DNA of 34,174 nt from Terriglobia bacterium (GCA_030037755.1 JASHQD010000575.1:1-34174); one strand, 5' to 3'. Positions 18,127-31,013 are shown, numbered from the stretch's first letter. The notes: generated by a model not told the origin, from the letters alone. Translations and numbers: made by a program.

Positions 18127-21009
18127 TTATTGAGGCGGTTCCGCCTTCGGGTGTGTCTGTTCCCTCATCTCCCGCCGCATACGATCCGGATTGTCCAAAG
18201 GCTCTGACGGCGGTGTCCCGGCCGCGACCGGTTCCAAACCGCGCTCGACAACTCTGGCGGGATCGAAGACGCGGCGGTCCGGCGGGAGCGCGACGTAAGG
18301 CGTGAAATCCGGCTTGTCGGTGAAGCAGTCGGAGAGGTCGGTCGCAGCCGCGTCGTACTGGTTCAGGTAAGGCATGCCGAGGATCAGATCGAAGGTCTTC
18401 AGGATGCTTGCCATGCTGGTGTGGACGTGCGACACGCCGCGGCGCGAATACGGGCTGATGACCATCAGCACGCTACGATGCGCATCCACGTGATCGGTGC
18501 CGGACTGGGCATCGTCCTCGGTCACGAAAATCGCCGTGTGGTTCCAGAATTTGCTGTGCGAGACCAGTTCTACCAGGCGGCCGAGCGCGAGATCGTTGTC
18601 CGCCACGTAAGAGGCGCGATACGGGTAACCGTCGGCAGGCCGCGGATCCGAGGTGTGGTCGTTCGGCAGCCAGATGAACATGAATTGCGGCAGCGGCTCC
18701 TGTCCGCTGGCGTAGCGCTCATCCCACTCTTTCTTGAACTGCTGCAGCCGGTACTGGTCCGAGATGTTGGTGTTGAACGTCGGGTAGATTCGCGACGTGT
18801 TCTCGAACAGCGGCTCCGGCATCGGCATGTTCACCACTTCGCGCACGCCGGTCGGTTCGAGATCGGCTTCTTCGTCGTCATTCGCGGTCTCCAGACCTTC
18901 GCCGTAGTTGCGAAAGGTGATGTTCTCGCGCGCGAGATTCTCCCACAACGAGCCGGCCTCGAGATACGTCTCGGGCCACGGATGGGTGGAGCCGATCTCG
19001 ATTCTGCCGGGCGCCTCGGCGTCGAACTTGAAATCAAACTGGCCGCCATAGGCCGCGGGCCAGCCCGTCTCCAGCACTTCATTGGGGTAATTATCCACCA
19101 GCCAGTGATGCCCATCGACCGACACGTCGGAATCCACATAGTAGTTGTCGCTGAGACCAAAGCGTCGCGCGAGGGCGTGATGATTGGGCGTGACATTCGC
19201 ATGCTCGATCACCGGCAAATTCGCCGCTTCCCGCGCCGCCTGATCGTTGTCCTTCCCGTCGTTGCCGTGCTCGGGTGACGGCGACGCCGTGGCATCCGTG
19301 CCGTAGACCGCGAGCGACGGTTCGCCATTCACCTTGTCGGAATCCAGCTGCGGTAAATCGCCGAAAACCTGGTCGAAGGTACGATTCTCCTTGACGATGA
19401 AGATCACGTGATGAATCTGCTCGCTCGGTTTCAGCCCGCTTTTGGCCGATTCCGTCCGCTCCGCCGAGGGAATCGGGAACCCGGCGGGCCTTACGGTCAG
19501 CCTCTCCGGAATGAACCCGTTGTTCTCGAGGACCTGGTCCGTTTGGAACGTTAGCGAGTCCTTATCCGGAACGGGCAGAATCTCCACCACGCCGTGCGTA
19601 ATGTCGCCGATGTAAGTGCCTTCCGGACCGGGCTGAAAACTCGGACCGCCGTTCGGCCCGGCGCCGAATCCTTTGGCGTTCGCAACGTAGAGAGTCTTGC
19701 CGTCGGCGCTCACCGCGACACGAGCGGGAAACCACGCCGTGGGAATATAGCCCTTTACCTCCAAGCGGCGCGTGTCGACGACGGCGACGGCGTTGATTCC
19801 TGCGCAGGCCACGTACAAGCGCGACTCGTCCGGGCTCAGCGCCATTCCGAAAGGCAGCACGCCGCGCAGATGCCGCACGGAATCCGCGGGCTCGAGTTCC
19901 AGCCGGTGCTTCACGCGCAGCGTGTGCGCGTCAATCTTGACAACGCTGTCCTGCGAAGCGTTGGAGACAAATATCCACTCGCGTCCGGCGATCACAGCGC
20001 CCGGACTCGAGCCGCCGATCGACTTGTCGCCGACCGGGATGCCGGTATGAGTCCTGGCCAGCAACACGGGCCTGCCTGGATTGCTGACGTTCAAAGTCCA
20101 AAGCGAGTTCGACCCGGGAGAATTGGGATCGCCAAGACCCGGAATCTCGCGGCCGTCCACCATTGCGCCCTGCTCCGCCGGCTTCGAGGGATAGCCGAAG
20201 GGCGGGAAATCGAGCCCGGTATCTTTCTGGTCCTTGGGATCGAGACCCGGAACCAAGGAATAGCGGAACGTGCCGACGTTGGAAACATAGACGCGCTCGC
20301 CGTCCGGAGAAAGCTCGATACCGAAGGGCATCAGGCCCACCGGAATCGTTGACTCGATCTTGCGCGACGCCGTGTCGAACACGACCATGCGGAAGTGGCC
20401 GAGATCGAGAACGAATAAGTGGCGGCCGTCGCGCGAGAGCTTCATGTCGCCGGTCAGGCTGTCGCGCGTGGCGACGCCAGGTTCGCTTGGCGATGGATCA
20501 TCGAGCGACATGGCGCCGAGCCGCTGATGGGTGACGAGATCGAAGATGCCCACGTGTCCATCATTACCCTCGGAAACGTAGGCGGTGCGATTGTCGGGCG
20601 CGATGGCGATGCCGAGAAAGACGCTCTTCGGGTCCGCGTCGGAGGATTTGCCGTCCGGCGGAATCTGCGCCACGGTTGGATTGTCACCGTCGAGATGAGT
20701 GATGATCGAGAGGGAGAACGGAGAAGTCCCGCTGTTGACCGTCACCAGCGTGGACCCGTCCGGAGAAAGAACCATGCCGTACGGGTGCGGCGCGACACGA
20801 ACGTGCACGCCGCGCGGCGTGATCCGGCGTCCGTTGGGAAGGATGGTGGCGCCGTCGGGGACGATGCTCGCCGGGAGCATGCCAGCGGGGGCGCCCAGCT
20901 CGAAAGTCTCGTACTCCACAACGTCGTTGCGCTGGGTCTGCGCCGGCGTGGCGTCATGCATGACGAAGCAGGCGATCAGCATGACAGCAAAGCGAGGTGA
21001 AAGGCGCAC
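18127..21009 (-). CDS. Exported beta-propeller plus phosphoesterase (phospholipase C-like) protein
   Basis: 960 residues. The signal peptide is MRLSPRFAVMLIACFVMHDATPA. Residues about 65-480 form a YncE/YVTN-type propeller with repeated LSPDGxxxYV units (GMVLSPDGSTLVTVN, IAIAPDNRTAYVSE, IELSPDGERVYVSN, MALSPDESRLYVACAG, VAVSADGKTLYVANA). From about 530 comes the PF04185 phosphoesterase domain of the alkaline-phosphatase superfamily: HHVIFIVKENRTFDQVFGD, SVDGHHWLVDNY, FIWLPNDHT and FVTEDDAQSGTDHVDAHRSVL. Relatives hydrolyse phospholipids or other phosphate esters outside the cytoplasm; the substrate here is unknown. Translation starts at GTG 21009 after GGGGAA; the internal ATG (M10) would shorten the export signal. 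It is divergent from the carboxypeptidase-deacylase gene. Confidence 0.9.
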   Translation of the reverse strand: MRLSPRFAVMLIACFVMHDATPAQTQRNDVVEYETFELGAPAGMLPASIVPDGATILPNGRRITPRGVHVRVAPHPYGMVLSPDGSTLVTVNSGTSPFSLSIITHLDGDNPTVAQIPPDGKSSDADPKSVFLGIAIAPDNRTAYVSEGNDGHVGIFDLVTHQRLGAMSLDDPSPSEPGVATRDSLTGDMKLSRDGRHLFVLDLGHFRMVVFDTASRKIESTIPVGLMPFGIELSPDGERVYVSNVGTFRYSLVPGLDPKDQKDTGLDFPPFGYPSKPAEQGAMVDGREIPGLGDPNSPGSNSLWTLNVSNPGRPVLLARTHTGIPVGDKSIGGSSPGAVIAGREWIFVSNASQDSVVKIDAHTLRVKHRLELEPADSVRHLRGVLPFGMALSPDESRLYVACAGINAVAVVDTRRLEVKGYIPTAWFPARVAVSADGKTLYVANAKGFGAGPNGGPSFQPGPEGTYIGDITHGVVEILPVPDKDSLTFQTDQVLENNGFIPERLTVRPAGFPIPSAERTESAKSGLKPSEQIHHVIFIVKENRTFDQVFGDLPQLDSDKVNGEPSLAVYGTDATASPSPEHGNDGKDNDQAAREAANLPVIEHANVTPNHHALARRFGLSDNYYVDSDVSVDGHHWLVDNYPNEVLETGWPAAYGGQFDFKFDAEAPGRIEIGSTHPWPETYLEAGSLWENLARENITFRNYGEGLETANDDEEADLEPTGVREVVNMPMPEPLFENTSRIYPTFNTNISDQYRLQQFKKEWDERYASGQEPLPQFMFIWLPNDHTSDPRPADGYPYRASYVADNDLALGRLVELVSHSKFWNHTAIFVTEDDAQSGTDHVDAHRSVLMVISPYSRRGVSHVHTSMASILKTFDLILGMPYLNQYDAAATDLSDCFTDKPDFTPYVALPPDRRVFDPARVVERGLEPVAAGTPPSEPLDNPDRMRREMREQTHPKAEPPQ

Positions 21010-21057: not shown

Positions 21058-21106
21058 AAACTGTCGGTCCGCAGAAGAGCAGGCAGCTTGCGGCATGGAG
21101 GATTTG

Positions 21107-24100
21107 ATGTCATGGCCTCGCCGGGTCGGGATTGCATGGGTCGCGAGCGTGGTGCTCCTTGGGCCCATTCTGATGACGGGCCCGGCAAGCAGCGCTCAGG
21201 CTCCGCAGCCTTCACTTGCCGAGCGCATCCGGCAGGTCACGGGCCGACCCGAGTTCAAGCACGCGACATTCGGCATCGAGTTCTATTCGCTCGATCGGCA
21301 GAAGGCGGTCTATTCGCTGAATCCCGAAGAGCTCTTCACGCCCGCTTCCACCACCAAGCTGCTGACGGAAGGTACGGCGCTGGCGCTGCTCGGAGCCGAT
21401 TTTCGCTTTCACACGCGCGTCTACCGCGTGGGCGAAGTTGACTCAGATGGCGTGCTGCATGGGGATATCGTGCTCGTGGCGGGCGGCGATCCGAATCTTT
21501 CCGGCCGCATTCAGCCCGACGGCACTCTGGCGTTCGAGAACGAGGATCATTGCTACGGCGGCAGTACGGACACGCGCGCTGTGCCGGGCGATCCGCTGGC
21601 GGTTTTGCGCGAGCTCGCGCGCCAGGTGGCCGCGCATGGGGTGAAGCGTGTCGACGGACGCGTGCTCGTGGACGCGACGCTGTTTCCCGAGGGCGAAGCC
21701 GAACTCGGCTCGGGCGCCATCATCTCGCCGATCGTGGTCAATGACAATATTATTGACGTGACCGCGAGCCCTGGCGCATCGGTGGGGCAGCCGGTGAGGC
21801 TCCAGATCTCGCCCGCCACGGCCTACGCGCAGTTCACCAATCAGGCGACGACCGGCGCACCCGATTCCGAGCCCAGCGTCAAGTTCTCCAACGATTCCGC
21901 AGGTCCGGACGGCCGCCGCGCGATCACCGTGACCGGCACGATGCCTCTCGGCAAACCCTCGATCCTCTTCAACTACGACGTACCTCAACCCACCATTTTT
22001 GCTGAGACCGCTTTTGCGCAGGTATTGACCGCGGAGCACATCCCGGTGAATGCCTTTACAAATGCTTCGGCGCCGGATTTCAAGAAGCTGGCTGCATTGT
22101 ACACTCCGCAGAACATGGTCGCGGAGCACCTCTCGCCTCCGTTGTCGGAAGAGATCAAGGTCACGCTGAAAGTCAGCCAGAACCTGCACGCCAGCCTGAT
22201 GCCGTACCTGCTCGGGGCATTGCTGGCGAAAGGCTCTCCCGATCTCTCCGCGGCCGGATTCGATCGCGAGCGGCAGTGGTTGCAGCAGGCAGGCCTCGAC
22301 CTGAGCCAGGCGTCGCAAGGCGACGGCGCGGGCGGTTCCGAAGCCGCATTCTATACGCCGGATTTCATGGTCCACTACCTGGCCTACATGGCTCGGCGGC
22401 CCGATTACCAGGTCTTCTTTCGCGCGCTGCCGATTCTCGGGCGCGACGGTACGCTGTGGAACATCCAGACGACGTCGCCCGCGGCCGGGAAGATTCATGC
22501 CAAGACCGGCACCTACACCGCTTACGATCCGCTCAATCGCAACGTAATGGTGACAGGCAAGGGTCTCGCGGGATACTTCACGACTCCGGCGGGCGAGCAC
22601 ATGGCCTTTGCGGTTTACGCAAATCGCGTGGCGGTTCCGGAGCAGGGCGATTCCGTCACGAACATTGTCGGTCAGGCTGTCGGCGAAATCGCCGCCGACG
22701 GGTACCTGGCTGGCGCTGCGCCGGAGTCCGCCTACGACGTCATCCTCAAAGGCGGGCGCGTGATCGACGGCACCGGGAACGGGTGGTTTTCGGCGGACGT
22801 CGCGATTCGAGGCGACCGGATCGCGGCGATCGGAATGCTGGATGGATCGCAGGCGAAACGCGTGATCGACGCCAGCGGACTGGTGGTCGCGCCGGGTTTC
22901 ATCGACATGCTCGGGCAGTCCGAAAGCTCGCTGCTGATCGACAACCGATCGCTCGCCAAGCTTTCGCAGGGAATCACCAGCGAGATCACCGGCGAAGGCC
23001 AATCCATCGCGCCGCAAGACGAGCAGACCTTGCTGCCGCTTCAGCCTTTTCTCGATCATTACCACCTGAAGATCGACTGGACGGATCTCGACGGTTACTT
23101 CCGCAGGCTCGAGCACGATGGGACGCCGATTAATCTTGGAACCTACGTGGGCGCGGCGCAGGTCCGTGAAGCGGTATTGGGCGACGTCGATCGGGCGCCT
23201 TCGCAAGCCGAGCTGGAGCGCATGGAGAGTCTGGTCGAGCAGGCGATGCAGCAGGGCGCGCTCGGACTCTCAACCGCACTGATCTATCCGCCGGGCCAGT
23301 ATGCCAGGACCGATGAGCTCGTCGCGCTGGCTAAAGTGGCGGCGCGCTACGGCGGAATCTACGCGACGCACATGCGAAGCGAAGGACAGGGAGAGATGGC
23401 GGCGCTCGATGAAGCTTTCCGCATCGGCCGCGAGGGCGGGCTGCCCGTCGAAATCTTCCACCTGAAGGTCACCGGCAAATCGCGCTGGGGTTCGATGCCG
23501 AAAATTGTCGAGCGCATCAATGCGCAGCGCGCGGCCGGGCTGAATGTTGCAGCCGATATGTACCCTTACCTGGCCGGAGCGACCGCCCTCGCATCGTGCC
23601 TGCCGCCTTGGGTCGCGGACGGTGGACCGGACAAGCTTCTCGACCGCCTGCGCGATCCCGCAACACGCAGGCGCATCAAGGCCGAAATGGCATCGGATCA
23701 TCCGGATTGGGAAAATCTTTATTACGACAGCGGCGGCGCGACGGGCGTCCGGGTCTCGGGCGTCTTCAACAAGGATCTTCAGCAGTACGACGGCGAAACG
23801 GTGGCCGAGATCGCACGCCAGCAGCGCAAGGAGCCGCTCGACGCCCTGTTCGATTTCGTCCTCGCAGACCACGCGCAGACCGGCGCCCTATACTTCATCG
23901 CCGGCGAGCAGGACCTTGAATACGGACTGCGCCAGCCGTGGACTAGCATCGGGCTCGACGCCAATGAAATGTCGCTCGATGGGCCGTTATTCGAGGCGCA
24001 CACGCATCCGCGGGCCTTCGGATCCATGCCGCGCTTCCTCGGCTACTATGTCCGTGACCATCACCTGCTGGACATGGACCAGGCGATTCGCAAGATCACC

Positions 24101-24349
24101 TCTCTGCCCGCAGACCGCGAGCGCTTGTACGAGCGCGGCCTGTTGCGTCCCGGATTCTATGCGGACGTGACGGTGTTTAATCCGGACACTATTGAGGACA
24201 CCGCGACTTACCAGCATCCGGCATCCGTCTCGCGAGGCGTCGAGTACGTGTTTGTGAATGGCCAGCTTGAGTTTGAGCAGGGGCATCTGACGGGCCTGAC
24301 AGCGGGACGCGTGCTGCGCGGTCCGGGCTGGATTGGACGAATCCAGTAG
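21107..24349 (+). CDS. Fusion: PBP4-type D-Ala-D-Ala carboxypeptidase (S13) + N-acyl-D-amino-acid deacylase-like amidohydrolase
   Basis: 1,080 residues from ATG 21107. I prefer this ATG to 21095 because GGAGG lies five bases before it. The signal peptide is MSWPRRVGIAWVASVVLLGPILMTGPASSAQA. Residues about 36-535 are a peptidase S13 domain with all three active-site boxes: PASTTK (nucleophile Ser81, Lys84), SQN (357-359) and KTG (466-468). From about 542 (YDVILKGGRVIDGTGNGWF) an amidohydrolase of the D-aminoacylase type follows, with IYATHMRSEGQGEM, VEIFHLKVTGKSRWG and LDANEMSLDG as likely metal-site regions. The usual HxH after strand 1 is replaced by GFIDMLGQSE. The frame is continuous with no internal stop. 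Expected roles are removal of terminal D-Ala from peptidoglycan peptides and hydrolysis of N-acyl-D-amino acids in the periplasm; coupling of the two is inference. Confidence 0.9.
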   Translation: MSWPRRVGIAWVASVVLLGPILMTGPASSAQAPQPSLAERIRQVTGRPEFKHATFGIEFYSLDRQKAVYSLNPEELFTPASTTKLLTEGTALALLGADFRFHTRVYRVGEVDSDGVLHGDIVLVAGGDPNLSGRIQPDGTLAFENEDHCYGGSTDTRAVPGDPLAVLRELARQVAAHGVKRVDGRVLVDATLFPEGEAELGSGAIISPIVVNDNIIDVTASPGASVGQPVRLQISPATAYAQFTNQATTGAPDSEPSVKFSNDSAGPDGRRAITVTGTMPLGKPSILFNYDVPQPTIFAETAFAQVLTAEHIPVNAFTNASAPDFKKLAALYTPQNMVAEHLSPPLSEEIKVTLKVSQNLHASLMPYLLGALLAKGSPDLSAAGFDRERQWLQQAGLDLSQASQGDGAGGSEAAFYTPDFMVHYLAYMARRPDYQVFFRALPILGRDGTLWNIQTTSPAAGKIHAKTGTYTAYDPLNRNVMVTGKGLAGYFTTPAGEHMAFAVYANRVAVPEQGDSVTNIVGQAVGEIAADGYLAGAAPESAYDVILKGGRVIDGTGNGWFSADVAIRGDRIAAIGMLDGSQAKRVIDASGLVVAPGFIDMLGQSESSLLIDNRSLAKLSQGITSEITGEGQSIAPQDEQTLLPLQPFLDHYHLKIDWTDLDGYFRRLEHDGTPINLGTYVGAAQVREAVLGDVDRAPSQAELERMESLVEQAMQQGALGLSTALIYPPGQYARTDELVALAKVAARYGGIYATHMRSEGQGEMAALDEAFRIGREGGLPVEIFHLKVTGKSRWGSMPKIVERINAQRAAGLNVAADMYPYLAGATALASCLPPWVADGGPDKLLDRLRDPATRRRIKAEMASDHPDWENLYYDSGGATGVRVSGVFNKDLQQYDGETVAEIARQQRKEPLDALFDFVLADHAQTGALYFIAGEQDLEYGLRQPWTSIGLDANEMSLDGPLFEAHTHPRAFGSMPRFLGYYVRDHHLLDMDQAIRKITSLPADRERLYERGLLRPGFYADVTVFNPDTIEDTATYQHPASVSRGVEYVFVNGQLEFEQGHLTGLTAGRVLRGPGWIGRIQ

Positions 24350-30078: not shown

Positions 30079-30537
30079 TCATTTTTCCAGACGGGGACTG
30101 CGGAAATGCGATGGGTTGCCAATCCTGATCCTCGCGAAGTCCCGCTGACGGGGATTCAGCAAAAAATTGCGTTCCGCCGGGATTACCACGCTGGGAACTT
30201 GCAATACGGCCGAGCGTTCTGTTCTGGCCCACTCGTCGCCGATCTCTCGGAGCCTCAGCGGCGATGGTTCGGTTCTCCACTTTCGTGGCAGTCGCGAGCG
30301 ATCGATCTTGGCGATCAGCGACTCTTCGAATCGCACCTCGATCACAACGTACCTTCCAAGCAGCTCGGATGAATCGAGGTGAACTAGCATCTCGAGCGCG
30401 GCTAGCGACTGGGACTCCGCCGTGTAGACGACGGCAACGCCCGGGCTGTTCCAGCGGCCTCCGTAAAGACGCGCGCCCTCTCCTGTGAATGCGGCATTTG
30501 CGAATCTTCGCTTGACGATCCGCCAAGCGCTGATCAT
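30079..30537 (-). CDS. RES-domain toxin (type II TA, NAD+-degrading family)
   Basis: 152 residues. The RES fold is seen in AWRIVKRRFANAAFTGEGARLYGGRWNSPGVAVVYTAESQSLAALEMLVHL, with the Arg and Glu of the name. SVVIPAERNFLLNP supplies the Ser and the closing Asn-Pro motif. Characterised members deplete NAD+ by hydrolysis or phosphorolysis, giving growth arrest. The start codon overlaps the antitoxin stop by one base (TAATG), so translation is coupled and antitoxin is made first. The gene is convergent with rimI, with a 66-base gap that holds no gene. Confidence 0.93.
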   Translation of the reverse strand: MISAWRIVKRRFANAAFTGEGARLYGGRWNSPGVAVVYTAESQSLAALEMLVHLDSSELLGRYVVIEVRFEESLIAKIDRSRLPRKWRTEPSPLRLREIGDEWARTERSAVLQVPSVVIPAERNFLLNPRQRDFARIRIGNPSHFRSPRLEK

Positions 30538-31013
30538 TAGGAGAAGACCCCGTGCTCAAGCCGGCCAATGAGGTTTTCCACTTCTCGAGCTCCGGGTTCA
30601 GTTCGTGAGTAATCCAGCGGCGTCTTATGACCCAAAGCCTTCTTCGGAGTGGTCAGCCAGGTCACGGCGCCAGGTAGATCGCCTTCGAAAAGTCTCACCG
30701 CATTCTCAAAAACCCTCGACAAGCGCAGCAGGCGCTCCGATTCATCCGGCATCAACCTGCCACTCGCCTTGCGACGGGCGAGCGTCCTTTCCGGGATTCG
30801 GAGCGCCTCGGCCATCGTCGCAACAGGCATGCCGGTCAGGCTGGCAAGTGATTCGAGCGCAGCAAACGAAATTCCCTTTTCAATTTGGGCGACCAGGTCA
30901 TCCGTCCCATTCGCACGAAGCCCCAGACTTGAACCCTGCGTCCTGAACCGTGGCGCGACGTGGCCTGTTTCCATTCCCGTTCGAGCGATTTTGAGGCTGC
31001 GAGGCTGAGCCAT
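30537..31013 (-). CDS. Xre/MbcA/ParS-family antitoxin (DUF2384)
   Basis: 158 residues. The N-terminal part has an Xre-type helix-turn-helix (FAALESLASLTGMPVATMAEALRIPERTLARRK). The C-terminal DUF2384 toxin-binding domain has LLRLSRVFENAVRLFEGD, WLTTPKKALGHKTPLDYSRTEPGAREVENLIGRLEHGVF, the standard ParS/Xre ending. Family members neutralise RES toxins by blocking the active site and bind their own promoter. An inverted repeat and a TTGACA box lie just upstream. The first about 40 residues before the helix-turn-helix are longer than in many relatives and may be disordered. Confidence 0.93.
   Translation of the reverse strand: MAQPRSLKIARTGMETGHVAPRFRTQGSSLGLRANGTDDLVAQIEKGISFAALESLASLTGMPVATMAEALRIPERTLARRKASGRLMPDESERLLRLSRVFENAVRLFEGDLPGAVTWLTTPKKALGHKTPLDYSRTEPGAREVENLIGRLEHGVFS

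Follow-up and report, generated by a model that had tools for sequence, protein, structure and literature searches.

Gene and protein architecture

The window (the whole stretch of DNA analysed, 34,174 nucleotides from Terriglobia bacterium, GCA_030037755.1 JASHQD010000575.1:1-34174) contains an open reading frame at 21095..24349 (+) which, uninterrupted by any stop, encodes 1080 amino acids from the ATG at 21107, most likely its start codon. The gene and the features of its N-terminal half are:

21107..24349, +: S13 peptidase-deacylase fusion gene (1080 aa; alternative ATG at 21095)
21107..21199, +: Sec-type signal peptide, residues 1-31 (sequence read by eye)
21218..22639, +: S13 (PBP4/DacB-type) D,D-peptidase domain, residues 38-511 (PF02113, E 4.6e-62)
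21347..21358, +: SxxK motif, S81TTK84
22175..22183, +: SxN motif, S357QN359
22502..22510, +: KTG motif, K466TG468
22709..22729, +: interdomain linker, about residues 535-541 (lowest interdomain pLDDT at 538-540)
22727..24325, +: D-aminoacylase-fold amidohydrolase domain, residues 541-1073 (1m7j, E 5.7e-86)

A preliminary description had proposed one uninterrupted, exported chain made of an S13 peptidase followed by a D-aminoacylase-type enzyme, and the reading frame, the Pfam matches and the fold matches all bore the fusion out. The N-terminal half scored 210.7 bits against PF02113 (Peptidase_S13; gathering threshold 22.8), and Foldseek superposed it on the R39 DD-peptidase (1w79) with a TMt of 0.83, a PBP4-type fold, PBP4 (2ex2) and the R39 enzyme being its best solved relatives. 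The active site was intact, as proposed: STTK, SQN and KTG were all found, and were shared by 52, 57 and 60, respectively, of 61 aligned S13 members. This half is predicted to be a serine D,D-carboxypeptidase/endopeptidase. Escherichia coli PBP4 (DacB), Actinomadura R39 and Bacillus subtilis PBP4a have the same motifs, signal peptide and fold (TMt 0.73-0.85); the window protein differs from them in belonging to a separate S13 clade (around 30-35% identity to other acidobacterial S13 proteins) and in carrying a C-terminal deacylase. The latter matched PF07969 (Amidohydro_3) at residues 585-1053 (E 1.4e-16) and the folds of D-aminoacylases and related deacetylases (TMt 0.90-0.92).

The Sec-type signal supports export, and cleavage would probably occur after SSA, leaving a predicted periplasmic protein. 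Residues 1-37 were conserved at only 41% with respect to the orthologue from a genome of the same genus, which is 87% identical across 1073 residues. An AlphaFold2 model built with 106 relatives (mean pLDDT 93.4, pTM 0.64; low confidence at residues 1-31 and 538-540) depicts two well-folded domains joined by a short linker, their mutual placement not being fixed. Linkers were variable across the fusions, Ala/Ser/Gly-rich and mostly short, though one was about 100 aa long. Purifying selection on each half is strong (dN/dS with respect to the genus orthologue, 0.09 for the S13 half and 0.05 for the deacylase half).

Occurrence of the fusion

Three hundred and ninety-nine genomes of the class were searched, the full-length protein and its two separate halves serving as queries, and frames were read directly. 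Both halves lay in one frame in 32 of these, from families f1, f6 and f10: two in the window's genus, one in another genus of f1, 28 in f6, and a single-contig genome in f10. Among the named records were Terriglobia, Candidatus Acidiferrales and further MAGs of Acidobacteria; one MAG carrying the title Betaproteobacteria grouped with the class genomes. In a sample of 396 genomes from the phylum, the window was the only full-length match and the other matches listed covered one half; the fusion was not found in the other classes sampled.

The draft assembly of the window's genome is in 802 contigs, and two fused copies (G137 and G216) appear to be broken by frameshifts within the fusion gene, both of which would fit an assembly or annotation artefact in which a missed stop or frameshift, near codon 537 in the window, merged two genes that are always separate. 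However, independent assemblies shared the one-frame fusion at 60-87% identity, including the single-contig genome G226; these rule out the artefact, which we regard as extremely improbable. A few of the fused copies were cut by contig ends. Since the same one-frame fusion recurs in 32 of 399 genomes, it is neither a product of chance nor of a local frameshift, and the fusion is genuine and conserved.

Other long frames were discarded as fusions: two deacylase candidates (L118, L121) matched an amidohydrolase alone in Pfam and a third frame (L123) S13 alone, and in an M16-deacylase candidate (L120) the M16 part, in the same frame, preceded a start codon with its own signal peptide and was read as a distinct gene. 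A literature search, with most subscription papers outside its reach, found no account of an S13-deacylase fusion. The protein apparently joins two known enzyme families, one of them with a changed metal site, in a way not described before.

The predicted metal site of the deacylase half

The positions of interest in the C-terminal half are:

22910..22918, +: L602-G603-Q604, replacing the HxH pair (LxQ in 80 of 115 aligned deacylases)
22994..22996, +: E630, putative metal ligand in place of Cys96 of Alcaligenes D-aminoacylase (from the alignment)
23285..23287, +: Y727, substrate amide anchor, equivalent to PpOngB Tyr194 (80/80 of the LxQ clade)
23369..23371, +: H755, metal ligand, equivalent to Af His220 (115/115 aligned)
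23459..23461, +: H785, metal ligand, equivalent to Af His250 (115/115 aligned)
23465..23467, +: K787, carboxylate anchor, equivalent to PpOngB Lys254 (80/80 of the LxQ clade)
23567..23569, +: Y821, carboxylate anchor, equivalent to PpOngB Tyr285 (77/80 of the LxQ clade)
23957..23959, +: D951, catalytic Asp, equivalent to Af Asp366 (115/115 aligned)
24011..24013, +: R969, carboxylate anchor, equivalent to PpOngB Arg379 (80/80 of the LxQ clade)

Subtype V amidohydrolases bind one zinc at a Cys/His/His site (PMC12017989). The window's deacylase half resembles them in fold, sequence kinship, catalytic Asp and Tyr/Lys/Tyr/Arg substrate anchors, but has Glu630 for the Cys, both His being kept, and lacks the HxH after beta strand 1, where L602-G603-Q604 stands (GFIDMLGQSE, residues 597-606, as first noted). 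The same holds in comparison with the Alcaligenes D-aminoacylase (1m7j), the B. bronchiseptica N-acyl-D-Glu deacylase (3gip) and the Klebsiella D-acylase (9g5m), which share with it the fold (TMt 0.90-0.92), the His/His ligands, the catalytic Asp and the four anchors, whereas the window protein has Glu for Cys and LxQ for HxH, and is fused behind an exported S13 domain. A Glu/His/His metal site characterises subtype IV (PMC12017989), and by alignment the corresponding beta-metal residues are present here; as the window protein is kin to D-aminoacylase instead, its likeness to subtype IV enzymes (NagA, CE9) would be convergent.

The two metal-binding His, the Arg two residues past the first of them and the catalytic Asp were invariant in all 115 aligned deacylases. 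LxQ with Glu accounted for 80 of these, HxH with Glu for 11 and HxH with Asn-Cys for 9, other combinations being rarer. Every one of the 80 sampled LxQ deacylases had Glu at the Cys site, and LxQ with Cys was never found; a deacylase paralogue in the window's own genome (C100) combined HxH with Glu. A series from Cys+HxH through Glu+HxH to Glu+LxQ is plausible, the order being our reading of the sequences. Rare variants with QxH, MxW or MxQ at the HxH site (L032:1132-3699, L022, L122, L087), each of which has Glu in the position of the Cys, may be possible intermediates in this change.

It had been suggested that, lacking the HxH pair, this half might differ in its chemistry. Given the conservation of E630, H755 and H785, of D951 and of the carboxylate anchors, the lack of a metal site is not indicated, and its loss is not supported, Glu having taken the place of Cys. 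As regards the chemistry, the HxH pair is indeed gone, but this is a trait of the whole clade, accompanied by the Cys to Glu change, and not a defect of one copy. The predicted site would hold one metal at Glu630/His755/His785, with Asp951 as the catalytic residue, and for the LxQ deacylases it is more likely than not that such a one-metal site is active. E. coli NagA likewise has no HxH (Gln59/Asn61), and one zinc suffices for it.

The GlcNAc1A deacetylase PpOngB (9kb1) shares the D-aminoacylase fold, a one-zinc mechanism and alpha-carboxylate anchoring, with Lys254, Tyr285 and Arg379 at the alpha-carboxylate and Tyr194 at the amide, but it keeps the Cys and the HxH, which are essential there and absent here (PMC12017989). 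By these anchors, the deacylase half is predicted to require a D-amino acid whose alpha-carboxylate is free and whose amine is acylated. The choice of substrate from the specificity residue (PpOngB Q298, Af L298, Bb R295) was abandoned, as the alignment had no template residues in that loop.

Fused and separate halves

In the deacylase tree all fused copies fell in one clade of 42 (SH-aLRT 100), which also included 11 stand-alone proteins, and in the S13 tree a clade of 54 comprised 32 fused and 22 stand-alone rows, intermixed. Eight changes between the fused and stand-alone conditions were needed on either tree. The f6 genomes without the fusion had both halves (8), the deacylase only (3), S13 only (8) or neither (42), a co-occurrence with a Fisher p of 5e-4, uncorrected for kinship; across the survey, 8 of the 14 non-fused genomes having the deacylase also had the S13 half. 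In genome G097 the S13 gene, with its linker, terminates at a stop codon, after which the codons in frame match the C-terminal tail of the deacylase (L185:9444-9575; score 74 with respect to the L067 copy, and 0 of 1000 shuffles reaching the score with respect to the L072 copy). This decayed tail indicates the loss of the deacylase from a gene that had been fused. S13 alone occupied the operon position used by the fusion elsewhere at four loci (L185, L189, L190, L191).

Gene neighbourhoods

Neighbours were counted on fetched stretches of varying length, and the loci are not independent, coming mostly from one family and largely from one genus. An RpiR/SIS regulator accompanied 18 of 33 fused genes, 7 of 29 S13-alone genes, 2 of 11 deacylase-alone genes and none of 20 control deacylase paralogues. 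An M15 D-Ala-D-Ala dipeptidase (13/33, 10/29, 0/11 and 0/20, respectively) and an MR_MLE racemase (7/33, 4/29, 0/11 and 0/20) were also met, while GNAT and amino-acid permease genes were rarer neighbours of the fusion or the S13 half. For fused vs. control genes, Fisher tests gave 7e-4 for M15 and 2e-5 for RpiR, on these non-independent loci. The M15 neighbour matched dipeptidases of the VanX type (1r44, E 2.2e-18; NF007557). The racemase, an enolase-superfamily protein at first taken for an L-Ala-D/L-Glu epimerase, was reassigned after model and structure matches: its nearest match was the N-acylamino acid racemase 1r0m (E 2.8e-101), and it also exceeded the cut-off of TIGR01928 (o-succinylbenzoate synthase), its family containing such synthases.

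The common order at fused f6 loci was ilv genes, RpiR/SIS, (racemase), M15 and fusion, with a convergent gamma-glutamyltranspeptidase; ilvD/ilvB/ilvC often preceded the operon (e.g. L224, L225, L229, L231). Upstream of the fusion gene at L081 were a regulator, a permease, a GNAT-like ORF (29% identical to the GNAT of L126, no Pfam match) and an S12+M15 fusion, and L126 had a regulator, GNAT, racemase and permease nearby. Racemase and GNAT were linked to the query gene at L126, L220 and the S13-alone locus L087 of Granulicella sp. L60, where permease, M20, S12 and a separate deacylase (43%) also lay close, but not at the window. The racemase, GNAT and M20 genes near the fusion or S13 half in these relatives recall the N-succinylamino acid racemase route of D- to L-amino acid conversion, which Sakai et al. 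are said to have described in 2006; here, however, they stand beside exported wall peptidases, and at the window they are unlinked.

A second fusion in these neighbourhoods, of an S12 beta-lactamase-like peptidase with an M15 dipeptidase (L081:2705-5197, L128:8906-11449), was also seen in L178, L180, L181 and Gemmatimonadaceae L086, where it adjoins an S13 gene. Stand-alone deacylases of the fusion clade were flanked by S12 and GlmS/NagB-II-like double-SIS genes (L127:6885-7949, L130, L131, L192), hinting at amino-sugar use.

At the window the fusion gene adjoins a beta-propeller/phosphoesterase gene, NAD kinase and LysA. None of these belongs to a D-amino-acid pathway, and no such neighbours were found at the f1-family loci examined. 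The window's genome (a draft 86% complete, which may hide more pathway genes) has M15 (57%) and racemase (59%) homologues on other contigs.

Proposed function

With moderate confidence, we take the fusion to be an exported bifunctional hydrolase of peptidoglycan-derived peptides that serves D-amino-acid scavenging. The S13 half would release D-Ala or open D,D cross-links, and the deacylase half, with one zinc, would hydrolyse amides in which the amine comes from a D-amino acid that has its alpha-carboxylate free, candidate substrates being peptidyl-D-Ala, L-Ala-D-Glu and simple N-acyl-D-amino acids. The D-amino acids freed would be imported and, in relatives with the genes, turned into their L forms by the GNAT, N-succinylamino-acid racemase and M20 route, while D-Ala-D-Ala would be handled by the dipeptidase. 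That the partner domain is a D,D-peptidase, together with the neighbourhoods, favours peptidoglycan peptides as the source. The dipeptidase, regulator, racemase, GNAT and permease neighbours in relatives support the scavenging of wall D-amino acids, and the wall-recycling or scavenging role first proposed rests on them; the window's own neighbours do not contribute to it, and the case is weaker in the window's lineage than in f6. The coupling of the two steps, like the operation of the pathway in this organism, is an inference.

The occurrence of single halves in many genomes indicates that coupling is not obligatory. It fits a possible, though rather doubtful, reading in which a wall-remodelling carboxypeptidase and a scavenging deacylase share export and expression with no mechanistic coupling. 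The interleaving of single halves with fusions on both trees, the G097 operon that dropped the deacylase and retained S13, the variable linkers and a low pTM beside a high pLDDT, which does not point to a rigid interface between the domains, are consistent with such separate roles; the retention of the fusion across three families, the selection on each half and the co-occurrence of split halves argue against them. A distinctly less probable explanation is that the deacylase half is catalytically changed, acting on another bond or serving as a binding module that steers the S13 half. In PpOngB, changing HxH to Ala abolishes activity (PMC12017989), so this half could be inactive or perform other chemistry; the LxQ replacement extends over 80 aligned sequences, and relatives in the LxQ clade fall to 47% identity, so their substrates may differ. 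Set against this are the invariant His/His/Asp, the nearly invariant carboxylate anchors, a dN/dS of 0.05 and the exclusive pairing of LxQ with Glu, which points to an orderly replacement.

A narrower proposal, which we consider unlikely, is that the Glu/LxQ half is a zinc L,D-carboxypeptidase, from the amidohydrolase superfamily, that removes D-Ala4 after S13 has removed D-Ala5, supplying D-Ala to an operon dedicated to scavenging murein D-amino acids. One exported chain would then trim pentapeptide to tripeptide, and with LxQ/Glu this family would have a further, novel type of one-metal site able to support catalysis.

Remains of bacterial walls abound in soil, and bacteria living there readily break down D-amino acids (PMC4912152). 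The neighbourhoods in relatives suggest that some soil Acidobacteria feed on wall D-amino acids with the help of the fusion. The conserved fusion, in this setting, offers a testable route of peptidoglycan feeding for a soil group that is abundant and largely uncultivated, and brings to attention an extensive and so far unstudied clade of deacylases whose metal site has changed.

Other genes in the window

The gene divergent from the fusion (18127-21009, -) encodes a 960-aa protein with a beta-propeller (lactonase/YVTN repeats) and a PF04185 phosphoesterase domain, and is syntenic in the genus relative G001. Further along, an Xre/MbcA/ParS-type antitoxin gene (30537-31013, -) is directly followed by a candidate RES-domain toxin gene (PF08808; 30079-30537, -), both forming a RES-Xre toxin-antitoxin pair (30079-31013).
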